From the NCBI RefSeq assembly GCF_024296665.1, contig NZ_CP100762.1:1488001-1552000 (forward strand): a stretch of DNA of 64,000 bases, read 5' to 3'. The notes below the pieces were generated by a model, which was not told the origin of the DNA, made no database searches, and was given only the letters and a program-made list of their open reading frames with translations. This DNA comes from Salinilacihabitans rarus. Lineage in GTDB: Archaea > Halobacteriota > Halobacteria > Halobacteriales > Natrialbaceae. A program made the translations under genes and the position numbers. Shown piece by piece: positions 787 to 52,346 of this stretch. Within the stretch, counting starts at the first letter, position 1. Each line of letters opens with the position of its first letter.

Positions 787-2928
787 GTGAAATTCGTCTC
801 AGCCGAGTACGACGCGGCCGCCGCCGGCGTCGACGCCGAGTTGACCGTCTGGGACCGGCTCAAAGGGTGTTTCACGCCCGAGGACGTCGGCGTGTGCTAC
901 TACCGGTATCCCATCGTCGACCAGCAAAACGACGACCTCGACCGGGAGGCGGATTTCGTGGTTCTACACAGGCGGTACGGGCTCGTCGTGATCGAGTGCA
1001 AGGGGTACCGGATCGACCACATCGAGTCGATAGAGGGGTCACGGTGGTCGCTGCGGGGGACGACACAGGAGTACGCGGCGCCGTACTCGCAGGCGCGCGA
1101 CCACGGGTTCCGACTCCGGTCGCCGATGATGCGCGAGCCGACGCTGGTCGACGAGCGCGGCAACTGTCACATCACGATGACGCCGCTGGTCGCGTTACCG
1201 AACGTCGGCCGCGAGGAGTGGGTCGAACGCGGGTTCGACGACCTGCCGTCCGCGCCGCGGGTGCTCCTGCGGGACGACCTCACGAAGTCGTCGCTCCGGG
1301 AGGCGTTCGAGTCGCTCCCCGGGGACACCGAACTGACCGCCGAGCAGTACGTCGACGCCCGCGCGGTGCTCGGCGGCGGTCAGGCGATCAGCGGCGAGCG
1401 CGGGCCCGTGCTGGCCGACGGCGACACGAAGGCGGGGCTCTACGAGACCGTCGAGAAGGGGCTGAAACGCCTCGACGAGCGACAGGAGGAGATCGGGGTC
1501 CAGATCCCCGACGGGCCCCAGCAGATCCGGGGGATCGCCGGTTCGGGAAAGACCGCCCTCGTCGCCCGGAAGGCGGCGGCGATGCACGCCAAACACCCCG
1601 ACTGGAAGATCGCGATCACGTTCAACACCCGGAGCCTCTACCAGACGATTCGCGACTCGGTCAGGCGGTTCTACGCCGACTTCGGCGGCGACGAGCCCGA
1701 CTGGGAGCGCCTCGAGGTGCTACACGGCTGGGGCGGAAAGAGCGAACACGGGATGTACTACCGGATCGCCCAGGACGCGGGGGTCTCCCCGCACCACGTC
1801 GGGTCGGCGAAGGACGCGTTCGACGCCGACGGCCCCGGGGAGTTGCTCGAGGCGTGCTGTCGGGAACTGGTCGCGGAGGCGCCGATCCAGGAGCGCTACG
1901 ACGCGATCCTCATCGACGAGGCACAGGACATGGAGCCCGCCTTCTACGAGATGTGTTACCGGGCGTTGAAGCCGCCGAAACGCCTCATCTGGGCCTACGA
2001 CGAGGCCCAGAACCTCACGAGCCTCTCGGCGCCGAGCCCGAAACGCATCTTCGGGACGGACGACGACGGCGAACCGGCGGTCGACCTGAGCGGGTCGTAT
2101 CCCGGCGGCATCCAGAAGAGCCAGATCATGCGGAAGTCCTACCGGACCCCCCGGTCCGTCCTGATGCTCGCGCACGTCTTCGGGATGGGGCTCACGAGCG
2201 ACCGCGGCGCCGTCCAGGCGATCACGACTCAGGAGGGCTGGGAGGACATCGGCTACGAGGTCCTCGAGGGCGACTTCCGACGAGTCGGCGAACCGGTCTC
2301 GATCCGTCGACCGGCGGAACACTCGCCACACCCCCTCTCGGAGAACCCCGAGGCGAAGCCGTTCGTCACCTTCGACGCGTTCGACGGGAAAGACGCCGAG
2401 TTGCGCGCGGTCGCAGACGCGGTCGCCGAGGACGTCCTCGAACACGGTATCGCGGCCGACAACGTCCTCGTGATCCCGCTGGGATCGCCCCGCGAGGCGC
2501 GGTCGACCGGCGCCGAACTCGCGGGCCTGCTCGCCGACCGCGGACTGGAGGCCAACCTCGTCTGGAAGGGCAACAAGAGCGTCTTCGCGAAGCCCGGGGA
2601 AGTGACCGTCTCCGGGATCAACCGGGCGAAGGGGAACGAGGCCGCCTCGGTCTACCTGTCGAACCTCGAGTACCTCGACGACCCGTACTGGCACGATACG
2701 CGCGTCCGGCCGCGAAACGAGGCCTTCGTCGGGATCACCCGGACCCGCGCGTGGTGTCGGATCACCGGCACCGGCGACCACCCGGCGCTGTTCGAGGAGA
2801 TCGACCGCCTCGTCGCGGACGTGACGGCGGCGGACCCGACGGTGACGTTTCCGGCCCCCGACCCGACCGAACTCGAAAACGAGATCGGCGACGACGAGAC
2901 GATCGCGACGACGATCGACCAGTTCTGA
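787..2928 (+). CDS. NERD-domain superfamily I helicase (UvrD-like)
   Basis: A 713-residue protein. The N-terminal part (about residues 1-120) resembles the NERD nuclease-related domain, with an E70-C-K72 pair in a PD-(D/E)XK-like setting. The rest is a superfamily I helicase: Walker A GIAGSGKT (249-256), Walker B DEAQD (377-381), an SYRTPRSV motif, a motif-V-like INRAKGNEA segment and a C-terminal VGITRTRAWC motif VI. It probably unwinds and perhaps cuts DNA in repair or defence against foreign DNA. The start is inferred: a TTTA-type box at about 757 lies 25-30 bp before the GTG at 787, fitting a leaderless transcript. An in-frame ATG at 760 is the alternative. No neighbour suggests a multi-gene defence system. 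Confidence 0.85.
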   Translation: MKFVSAEYDAAAAGVDAELTVWDRLKGCFTPEDVGVCYYRYPIVDQQNDDLDREADFVVLHRRYGLVVIECKGYRIDHIESIEGSRWSLRGTTQEYAAPYSQARDHGFRLRSPMMREPTLVDERGNCHITMTPLVALPNVGREEWVERGFDDLPSAPRVLLRDDLTKSSLREAFESLPGDTELTAEQYVDARAVLGGGQAISGERGPVLADGDTKAGLYETVEKGLKRLDERQEEIGVQIPDGPQQIRGIAGSGKTALVARKAAAMHAKHPDWKIAITFNTRSLYQTIRDSVRRFYADFGGDEPDWERLEVLHGWGGKSEHGMYYRIAQDAGVSPHHVGSAKDAFDADGPGELLEACCRELVAEAPIQERYDAILIDEAQDMEPAFYEMCYRALKPPKRLIWAYDEAQNLTSLSAPSPKRIFGTDDDGEPAVDLSGSYPGGIQKSQIMRKSYRTPRSVLMLAHVFGMGLTSDRGAVQAITTQEGWEDIGYEVLEGDFRRVGEPVSIRRPAEHSPHPLSENPEAKPFVTFDAFDGKDAELRAVADAVAEDVLEHGIAADNVLVIPLGSPREARSTGAELAGLLADRGLEANLVWKGNKSVFAKPGEVTVSGINRAKGNEAASVYLSNLEYLDDPYWHDTRVRPRNEAFVGITRTRAWCRITGTGDHPALFEEIDRLVADVTAADPTVTFPAPDPTELENEIGDDETIATTIDQF

Positions 2929-2950
2929 CGCGGCGCCACACCATCACAAC

Positions 2951-2984
2951 GTTTTTAACCTGTTCGGGACTACGCGTATCCACG
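2951..2984 (+). promoter_or_regulatory. thrS promoter with TATA-like box
   Basis: An AT-rich core GTTTTTAA at 2951-2958 stands out in GC-rich DNA. It lies about 25-30 bp before an ATG at 2985, the usual haloarchaeal spacing from TATA box to transcript start. The transcript would therefore begin at or just before the leader ORF, well upstream of thrS. Confidence 0.55.
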
Positions 2985-3077
2985 ATGGTAGGTGTCCGCT
3001 TTACACGGGCGTTCGCCCGCTTCTAACCCACACCTACCGTGCGCTGTGTCTCGGAGTTCGAATCCCGACCAGCGGAC
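2985..3077 (+). promoter_or_regulatory. structured leader of thrS with 13-codon ORF
   Basis: The sequence shows a leader ORF at 2985-3026 ([13 protein letters not shown], stop TAA). Its DNA takes part in several helices. GGTAGGTGT (2987-2995) pairs perfectly with ACACCTACC (3030-3038). A nested hairpin CGGGC-GTTC-GCCCG lies at 3006-3019. GTCCGCT (2994-3000) pairs with AGCGGAC (3071-3077) and would enclose a T-arm-like hairpin with the loop TTCGAAT (3057-3063). The 9-bp and 7-bp helices share bases and cross topologically, so they should exclude each other. A leader under translational or aminoacylation control, ending 52 nt before the thrS ATG, is an inference. It is not a canonical tRNA gene: there is no D-arm and the T-stem has a bulged A. 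Confidence 0.45.
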
Positions 3078-3129
3078 GGTCTCCGTGTCGACGGCACGCC
3101 TCGCGGACGCCGCCGGAATCCTCACACCC

Positions 3130-5082
3130 ATGTCAGAACCAGAGTCAGAATCACAGGAGTCGATAGCGGTCGTACTGCCCGACGGATCGGAACTCGATGT
3201 CGACGCCGGCGCGACGGTCGAGGACTGCGCCTACGAGATCGGCCCCGGCCTCGGCCGGGACACGGTCGCGGGCAAACTCGACGGCGACCTCGTCGCCAGG
3301 GAGGAACCCGTCTACGACGGCGCGGAACTCGAGATCGTCACCGACCAGTCGGAGGCGTACCTGCGGGTGATGCGCCACTCCGCGGCCCACTGTCTCGCGC
3401 AGGCCGTCGAGCGACAGTTCGACGACGTGAAACTCGCCATCGGCCCGCCGACCGACGAGGGCTTCTACTACGACTTCGACGACCTCGACGTCGACGAGGA
3501 CGACCTCGAAACCCTCGAAGACGAGATCGAGGAGATCGTCGAAGCCGACTACGACATCGAGCGCGAGGAGGTCTCGATCGAGGAGGCCCGCGACCGCCTC
3601 GAACAGCGGGACGAACCGTACAAACTCGAACTCCTTGAGGAGTTCGCCGCGGAGGGCGAGACGGTCACCTTCTACAGTCAGGGCGAGTGGGAGGACCTCT
3701 GTGCCGGCCCGCACGTCGACTCGACGGGCGAGATCGGCGCCGTCGAACTGCTGGAGATCGCCGGCGCCTACTGGCGCGGCGACGAGACCAATCCGATGCA
3801 GACCCGGATCTACGGCACCGCGTTCGAGGACGAGAGCGACCTCGAGGCGTTCCTCGAACGGCGCCGCGAGGCCGCACAGCGTGACCACCGCAAGATCGGC
3901 CGCGAGATGGACCTCTTCTCGATTCAGGACGTCACCGGCCCCGGCCTCCCGCTGTATCACCCGCCGGGGAAGACGGTCCTGAACGAACTCTCCGAGTTCG
4001 TCCGCGAACTGAACGGGGAGGCGGGCTACGACTACGTCGAGACGCCCCACGTCTTCAAGACGGACCTCTGGCACCGGTCGGGCCACTACGAGAACTACAA
4101 GGACGACATGTTCGTCTTCGACGTCGGCGACGACGAGTTCGGCCTGAAGCCGATGAACTGCCCCGGCCACGCCGCCATCTTCCAGGACCACTCCTGGAGC
4201 TACCGCGACCTGCCGATCCGGTACGCCGAGGACGGGAAGGTCTACCGCCGCGAGCAGCGCGGCGAACTCTCGGGTCTCTCGCGGGTGTGGGCGTTCACCA
4301 TCGACGACGGCCACCTGTTCGTCCGCCCCGACCAGATCGAACAGGAGGTCGAGCAGATCCTCGAGATGATCTTCACGGTACTCGAGACGTTCGACCTCGA
4401 TTACGAGGTGTCGCTTGCGACCCGCCCCGAGAAGTCCGTCGGGTCGGACGAGATCTGGGAGCGCGCCGAGTCGATCCTCGAATCGGTCCTCGAGGAGTCG
4501 AAGATGGACTACGAGGTAGAGGAGGGCGACGGCGCCTTCTACGGGCCGAAGATCGACTTCGGCTTCGAGGACGCCATCGGCCGGGTCTGGGACGGCCCGA
4601 CGGTCCAACTCGACTTCAACATGCCCGAGCGGTTCGACCTCACCTACGTCGGCGAGGACAACGAGGAGCACCGCCCGGTGATGATCCACCGCGGCATCTA
4701 CGGCAGCTACGAGCGGTTCTTCATGGTGCTCATCGAGCACTTCGAGGGGAACTTCCCGCTCTGGCTCGCCCCCGAGCAGGTGCGCGTCCTGCCCATCTCC
4801 GACGACAACCTCGACTACGCCCGCGAGGTCGCAAGCGAGTTCGAGGGCTTCCGGATCGAGGTCGGCGACCGCGACGCCACCCTCGAACGGAAGATCCGCG
4901 CGGCCCACGACGACCGCGTCCCCTACCAGATCATCGTCGGCGACGACGAGGAGGAGGCGGGTACCATCTCCGTGCGCGACCGGTTCGAACGGCAGGAGTA
5001 CGACGTCGACATCGACGCGTTCCGCGCCCACCTCGAAGCCGAACGCGACGAGAAGCGGACGGAACCGAACTTCCTGCAGTAG
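3130..5082 (+). CDS. thrS: threonyl-tRNA synthetase
   Basis: A 650-residue class II synthetase that charges tRNA-Thr in the cytosol. It has an N-terminal TGS domain (about 10-72), an editing/SAD domain with the zinc-type HxxxH pair (H83, H87), a catalytic core with the MNCPGH segment (Cys344, a zinc ligand that selects threonine), a motif 2 region ([11 protein letters not shown]) and motif 3 ([12 protein letters not shown]), and a C-terminal anticodon-binding domain. Having TGS and editing domains, it is the full-length bacterial-like form found in haloarchaea. The ATG at 3130 is chosen because the TGS fold begins soon after it; the frame stays open upstream to 2992 but that part is low-complexity leader sequence. 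A structured leader with a short ORF precedes it. Confidence 0.97.
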
Positions 5083-52272: not shown

Positions 52273-52346
52273 CCGCCCTTAGCTCAGACTGGTAGAGCAG
52301 CCGACTGTAGATCGGCTTGCCCCCCGTTCAAATCGGGGAGGGCGGA
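52273..52346 (+). tRNA. tRNA-Tyr (anticodon GTA)
   Basis: A complete cloverleaf. The acceptor stem CCGCCCT pairs with AGGGCGG, the D-arm is GCTC...GAGC, the anticodon arm is GCCGA-CTGTAGA-TCGGC with GTA at 52307-52309, and the T-arm is CCCCG-TTCAAAT-CGGGG, followed by discriminator A at 52346. No intron is present and CCA is not encoded. It lies upstream of cdrL on the opposite strand. A TAATAACC box (about 52231-52238) lies 35-42 bp upstream. Confidence 0.96.

Follow-up and report, generated by a model that had tools for sequence, protein, structure and literature searches.

Does the DNA ahead of the threonyl-tRNA synthetase gene of Salinilacihabitans rarus hold a leader that controls this gene, and if so, what does the leader sense? 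The window analysed here is a stretch of 64,000 nt (contig NZ_CP100762.1, 1,488,001–1,552,000); coordinates below count from its start and all features lie on the plus strand. thrS (3130–5082, start ATG at 3130) encodes a bacterial-type enzyme of 650 amino acids with the Pfam domains TGS, tRNA_SAD, tRNA-synt_2b and HGTP_anticodon. A previous sequence-only reading had described, in front of this gene, a 13-codon ORF, a perfect 9-bp helix with a nested GTTC-loop hairpin, and a crossing 7-bp helix enclosing a tRNA-like end; the ORF, the 9-bp helix and the nested hairpin were all found where it had placed them. We consider it reasonably probable that this region is a cis-acting leader in which translation of a leaderless upstream ORF (uORF) makes the expression of thrS depend on how much Thr-tRNA(UGU) is available.

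When the comparison set of 293 genomes from the order was searched at the DNA level, 2940–3050 proved to be conserved across the whole of the window's family. A 21-nt core gave 75 matches in genome contigs, and every one of the 75 lies upstream of thrS, with the gene 90–503 nt downstream; the genera include Natrialba, Natrinema, Natronorubrum, Natronococcus, Halovivax, Haloarchaeobius, Halorubellus, Halovenus, Halostella, Salinarchaeum and Halosimplex. A covariance model built from the two helices H1 and H2 described below matched 97 of the 293 genomes at E ≤ 0.01 (two of these by chance): 62 of the 63 genomes in the window's family, all nine of family f7, three of f10 and some genomes of f3, f4, f5 and f17. 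Twenty outlier matches were fetched, of which 18 precede a ThrRS gene and two (G020 and G025) are the chance matches; two further outlier leaders from f17 were inspected beyond these 20. The sole unmatched genome of the window's family, G197, has no bacterial-type thrS, and its archaeal-type thrS is without the leader. A search of the S. rarus genome itself gave one strong match and one at E 5.4, and no second copy of the element was found there. As judged by these comparisons, the leader element is linked exclusively to thrS and recurs ahead of it in several haloarchaeal families.

Most leaders were gathered with a motif or model containing TTTACA, which in part builds in the invariance of that hexamer; the sets free of this bias are those reached via ThrRS homology. 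A ThrRS search located thrS in 275 of the 293 genomes, and upstream DNA was inspected for 100 of these 275 loci. The motif was present in 72 of the 100 regions. No such uORF was found within ~500 nt in 25 of the 28 motif-free regions (f4, f5, f6, f12 and f17), most of which carry a TATA-like element ~30 nt ahead of thrS; thrS itself thus appears to be leaderless in most of them. In two of the remaining three, G229 and G036, the uORF is present in a longer form; the third, G246, was left out of the ThrRS set because its locus fell within the thrS gene, and its leader appears in the covariance-model search. Locus L344 was left out for the same reason, and G229 and G036, owing to their long insertion, were left out of the H1 pair counts and of the alignment of the crossing helix (AH); sequence duplicates were removed before uORF, codon, H1 and AH counts.

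Some genomes harbour two bacterial-type ThrRS genes (loci L331–L335 and L383–L391, from f17, G192 and G242). In those of f17 for which both sides were inspected one copy is leaderless and the other has the leader, and likewise in G192 and G242, an arrangement reminiscent of the thrS/thrZ pair in Bacillus. In G283 (loci L291 and L294) the bacterial-type thrS is leaderless and the leader precedes an extra, archaeal-type ThrRS gene with the archaea-specific editing domain (tRNA-Thr_ED); this additional enzyme may serve under particular conditions or for resistance. Since the leader stands before two types of ThrRS, the element tracks thrS function rather than one type of protein.

The uORF of S. 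rarus (2985–3026) opens with ATG at 2985 and closes with TAA at 3024–3026. It is preceded by a T-rich, TATA-like element (gtttttaa, 2951–2958), and a run of this kind begins 32–33 nt ahead of the uORF ATG in 120 of 136 leaders; this element would serve as the TATA box, with transcription starting near 2980–2985. As the TATA–ATG spacing is fixed and most Haloferax transcripts begin at the start codon or no more than 5 nt from it (PMC4983044), the uORF is probably a leaderless first cistron. The frame that begins at the ATG is 13–18 codons long in all 72 motif-bearing leaders; Halovenus-type leaders have shorter uORFs of 10–11 codons. The distance from the ATG to a TTT codon discussed below is 15, 18 (G074, G176, G192 and G283) or 66 nt, each a multiple of three; the longest results from an in-frame insertion of ~50 nt in G229 and G036, which retain the uORF ends ...RFTRAFARF and ...RFTRAVARF. 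Of the 135 leaders with a clear H1, 131 have a frame-0 stop between the conserved ACA codon and the 3' arm of this helix; a stop lies there in frame +1 in one leader and in frame +2 in three. This is a count rather than a probability, as related sequences are not independent. The stop lies 1–9 nt before the H1 3' arm in most leaders and is TAA in 117 of 135 distinct uORFs, compared with 3 of 40 ORFs in the window. By this comparison the start, frame and stop of the uORF are conserved. In one leader (L090, genome G086) an insertion with a near-palindrome, CACACGTCGAACGGCACC...GGTGCCGTTCGAGTGTG, lies between the uORF and the H1 3' arm; it stretches the uORF to 18 codons and parts the arms of H1, and is perhaps a small mobile element.

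The 5' arm of H1 (2985–2995) lies within uORF codons 1–4 and its 3' arm (3030–3040) just beyond the uORF stop. The core of 9 perfect base pairs (2987–2995 with 3030–3038) extends to 11 bp in the predicted fold of 2985–3045 (−26.0 kcal/mol; z −3.7), which none of 200 shuffles equalled. The fold of the whole leader (2978–3145) scarcely exceeds its shuffles (z −1.5), and the case for structure therefore rests on comparison. Alignment of related thrS leaders, the check that the sequence-only reading had proposed, found both the ORF and the 9-bp helix conserved, the latter with compensatory changes. H1 pairs through quite different sequences (GGTAGGTGT/ACACCTACC, GGCAGGTGTC/GACACCTGTC, GGTGACTG/CAGTCACC, and also TGGCAGAA/TTCTGCCA and ATGGCAGTAGGTG/CACCTACTGTCGT); in 94 distinct arm sets 85–99% of cells are paired at the eight columns −16 to −9, and several columns have changed in both arms. 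Pairing beat shuffles at p ≤ 0.05 in 102 of 127 leaders, single-leader p values being modest. Across the alignment, then, H1 is maintained by compensatory changes. RNAalifold gave almost no consensus for the full-length leader alignment, in which the downstream part and the placement of gaps vary.

Within H1 lies an optional inner hairpin, H2 (CGGGC-GTTC-GCCCG, 3006–3019), which is present in Natrialbaceae, f7, f10 and f17, has a loop that varies among leaders, and is reduced or missing in the shorter uORFs of the Halovenus-type leaders. Adjoining a helix is the strongly conserved and unpaired UUUACA. A third helix after H1 (CGCTG/CAGCG) was considered and dropped, with 9 of 124 leaders at p ≤ 0.05, about what chance would give.

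Read in the frame of the uORF, this hexamer is codon 6, TTT for phenylalanine (3000–3002), and codon 7, ACA for threonine (3003–3005), the proposed sensor codon. Both are rare: in 40 ORFs of the window ACA accounts for 21 of 880 threonine codons (2.4%) and TTT for 24 of 461 phenylalanine codons. Both are also invariant in all 58 distinct 13-codon uORFs, a set found via a TTTACA-containing motif. Two leaders found via ThrRS were informative in this respect: G182 has GTG-ACA, H1 arms GGCAGAA/TTCTGCC and the peptide MAEVSVTGRAL; G353 has TTG-ACA, H1 arms GGCAGGT/ACCTGCC and the peptide MAGIQLTGLAV. What these two have kept, with a different peptide and a different helix sequence, is the start, the frame, the pairing and ACA as codon 7. 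The cognate codon that is looked for in a leader-peptide attenuator is thus found at a fixed site, including in leaders reached by ThrRS homology alone. There is one threonine codon per leader. It is read by tRNA-Thr(UGU), with the anticodon loop CUUGUAA; the other tRNA-Thr species in the genome have the anticodons CGU and GGU. This in-frame rare codon, which the sequence-only reading had not used, is the strongest feature of the leader.

A further helix, AH, crosses H1 and shares two or three bases with it. Its 5' strand TGTCCGC (2993–2999) spans codons 3–5 and its usual partner is GCGGACG at 3103–3109. The crossing 7-bp helix proposed earlier (2994–3000 with 3071–3077) is present in S. rarus, but the conserved partner is usually the counterpart of 3103–3109; the AGCGGAC at 3071–3077 is a second copy of the complement, found also as CAGCGGAC in a few relatives, and is not the commonest site. 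GCGGAC is present in 53 of 58 leaders with GTCCGC. Nine leaders have GTCTGC, with GCAGAC in four and GCGGAC in one; 18 have GTCCGT, with ACGGAC in five and GCGGAC in none, several of these being Halovenus-type leaders without AH; and GTAGAC was found in none of seven leaders with GTCTAC. When 83 leaders were aligned over this block, 90% of cells paired in register, compared with 10–43% when the strands were slid by 1–3 columns, and the 3' site lies a median of 44 nt ahead of thrS. We had initially rejected a crossing helix as codon 5 varies, a decision overturned for Natrialbaceae by this wider test. Comparison thus indicates that AH is real in Natrialbaceae, where the crossing of two helices is borne out; a search for the complement found it absent from most leaders outside this family. 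AH could be an alternative to the top of H1 or could form a pseudoknot with it. Many Natrialbaceae also share a conserved stretch resembling RCSCSRCCGRAMTTYTCAC past GCGGAC and ahead of thrS (3103–3125 in the window).

From this arrangement we infer translation of the uORF, stalling, the direction of the response and an output step. The transcript would begin a few bases ahead of the uORF AUG, as suggested by the fixed TATA–ATG distance. Codons 1–5, directly before ACA, contain the 5' strands of both H1 and AH, and a ribosome whose A site holds ACA would cover approximately the first 31 nt of the uORF, including both strands. With threonine in ample supply, ribosomes would clear ACA and exit at the stop, H1 and AH would close, and thrS expression would drop; with Thr-tRNA scarce, the ribosome would halt with ACA in the A site and occupy the 5' strands, so that neither helix would form and thrS would be expressed. 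The open state is taken as the expressing one because cells that run short of charged tRNA-Thr should make more of the enzyme that produces it.

Early termination at a U-enriched stretch after H1 is our first guess for the output, and weaker initiation at thrS the second. Over the first 10 nt past H1, T makes up 36% of the sequence; from 10 nt on it makes up 11–17%. Archaeal termination relies on U-tracts together with aCPSF1 (PMC8716108), and transcription and translation are reported to be coupled in Haloferax (PMC8576121). Beyond this U-enriched stretch no sign of the output expected of an attenuator was found: no intrinsic terminator was detected in 2900–3200, and control of the accessibility of the thrS start by H1 was rejected, the computed mean unpaired value in 123 leaders being 0.597 free, 0.592 with a ribosome stalled at ACA and 0.579 with one at the stop. 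In f7 masking of the uORF slightly lowers computed accessibility (−0.07). The thrS genes of f7, and some with Halovenus-type leaders, have a Shine–Dalgarno-like GGAGGTG upstream that is complementary to CACCT in the H1 3' arm; none was seen before thrS in Natrialbaceae.

Several observations count against a threonine sensor. Modelling predicts low sensitivity where such codons form a small fraction, and also for an isoacceptor reading little-used codons, which can remain charged (PMC1183508); given this, the single threonine codon is a point against such a reading. The near-invariance of TTT, almost as strong as that of ACA, is not required by a sensor of threonine, and that AH was not found in most leaders outside Natrialbaceae also weighs against the mechanism.

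One alternative is that the uORF, translated simply as a first cistron, sets the basal level of thrS by delivering ribosomes, by re-initiation or by protecting the mRNA, and senses nothing, with H1 only tuning that level. Leader ORFs in bacteria can increase downstream translation (PMC4833913), and one regulatory codon is few for a sensor that has no detected terminator or start-site switch. Such a cistron, however, does not account for a threonine codon in its rarest form, at one place, ahead of the gene for a threonine enzyme alone, nor for an H1 maintained by compensation, and we regard this alternative as unlikely.

The sequence-only reading had favoured a different comparison, likening the tRNA-like end to the way in which E. 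coli ThrRS binds its own mRNA. In that system too control acts in cis in the thrS leader of a bacterial-type ThrRS; the enzyme attaches to a tRNA-like region and keeps ribosomes from binding (PMC6542539). Applied here, a tRNA(Thr)-like fold of the leader would be bound by ThrRS and translation of thrS blocked, the uORF being incidental or a landing site for ribosomes. The gene and the bacterial type of its ThrRS are shared with E. coli, and a strongly conserved unpaired UUUACA beside a helix would suit a binding site. The hairpin that prompted the comparison (3050–3069), however, lies outside the conserved element: it is in the sequence, with its loop TTCGAAT at 3057–3063, but is absent from the other leaders in an alignment of 69, and the heptamer occurs twice in the window where 3.1 occurrences are expected. 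A tRNA gene or relic was also considered and rejected, since ARAGORN found in the window only a tRNA-Tyr at 52273 and the hairpin is private to this genome among the aligned leaders. In addition the H2 loop is variable, the conserved unpaired triplet is the codon ACA and not an NGU anticodon, and the conserved start, frame and stop of the uORF would go unexplained. One leader, in G283, precedes an archaeal-type ThrRS, so that the leader can be explained without invoking recognition by a single kind of ThrRS. With a conserved uORF in place of a conserved tRNA-like fold, the haloarchaeal leader is on present evidence not an operator of the E. coli type, and ThrRS binding appears a rather improbable basis for it.

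In Firmicutes, thrS and thrZ are preceded by T-box riboswitches, which sense charging for a single aminoacyl-tRNA synthetase gene through a codon-like triplet, and T-boxes also precede second synthetase copies. A direct sensor of this kind, working without a ribosome, would have UUUACA pair with the anticodon loop of uncharged tRNA-Thr(UGU); UUACA could indeed pair with CUUGUAA over five bases. A T-box also has a UGGN sequence complementary to the discriminator and CCA end of the tRNA. All three tRNA-Thr genes end in ...GGCT, so that UGGA would be needed, but the leaders carry AUGGU, AUGGC or AUGACGG, which provide UGGU, UGGC or no UGG. Moreover, TTG or GTG at codon 6 in two leaders breaks the longer pairing, Rfam gave no T-box match at E up to 5 within 2600–3400, and conservation of frame and stop is not expected of a T-box. 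We conclude that the leader is not a T-box, and give very little credence to direct tRNA sensing. Equally improbable is a riboswitch or protein-binding site for some other ligand with UUUACA as its recognition element: UUUACA, TTT included, is near-invariant at the RNA level, but the sequence of H1 is free to vary, no further invariant unpaired block is shared across families, frame conservation would go unexplained and no known RNA family was found for the leader (best Rfam matches E 2.3 and 4.7).

The leader most resembles the leader-peptide attenuators of bacteria, such as those of the trp and his operons, of trpS and leuS in Streptomyces and of hisS and hisZ in bacilli, with which it shares a short 5' ORF, a codon for the cognate amino acid and overlapping helices whose formation would depend on the ribosome (PMC1183508, PMC1262725, PMC2965389). 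It differs from these in that it is archaeal, its ORF is leaderless and has only one threonine codon, the coding strand of the uORF is itself one arm of the main helix, and there is no recognisable terminator or sequestered start; as these output features were not found, we do not class it as a member of that group. A paper of 2010 places such attenuators only in Proteobacteria, Actinobacteria and, as was then new, Firmicutes (PMC2965389). In Haloferax volcanii small ORFs occur in 16 of 97 very long 5' UTRs and resemble the present one as uORFs at the start of a transcript, although the account given of them in that genome-wide start-site study describes no amino-acid specificity or conserved RNA structure, and structured leaders are presented there as untypical of haloarchaea (PMC4983044).

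The sequence-only reading knew of no such leader in archaea, and our searches of the open-access literature on archaeal attenuation, leader peptides, thrS leaders and haloarchaeal RNA motifs, a scope beyond which most subscription papers lie, likewise found no report of one. Ribosome-mediated attenuation is textbook bacterial gene control, and we know of no archaeal case. We put at slightly better than even the chance that this leader is the first amino-acid-sensing leader-peptide attenuator in archaea: a leaderless micro-cistron that supplies one arm of the switch with its own coding strand and can serve genes for both bacterial- and archaeal-type ThrRS. If so, the switch would be read by a eukaryote-like ribosome on RNA transcribed by an archaeal RNA polymerase; transcription and translation in archaea would be so closely coupled that a gene could be steered by a ribosome on the nascent RNA; and the leader would offer a genetic handle on this coupling and on factor-dependent termination.
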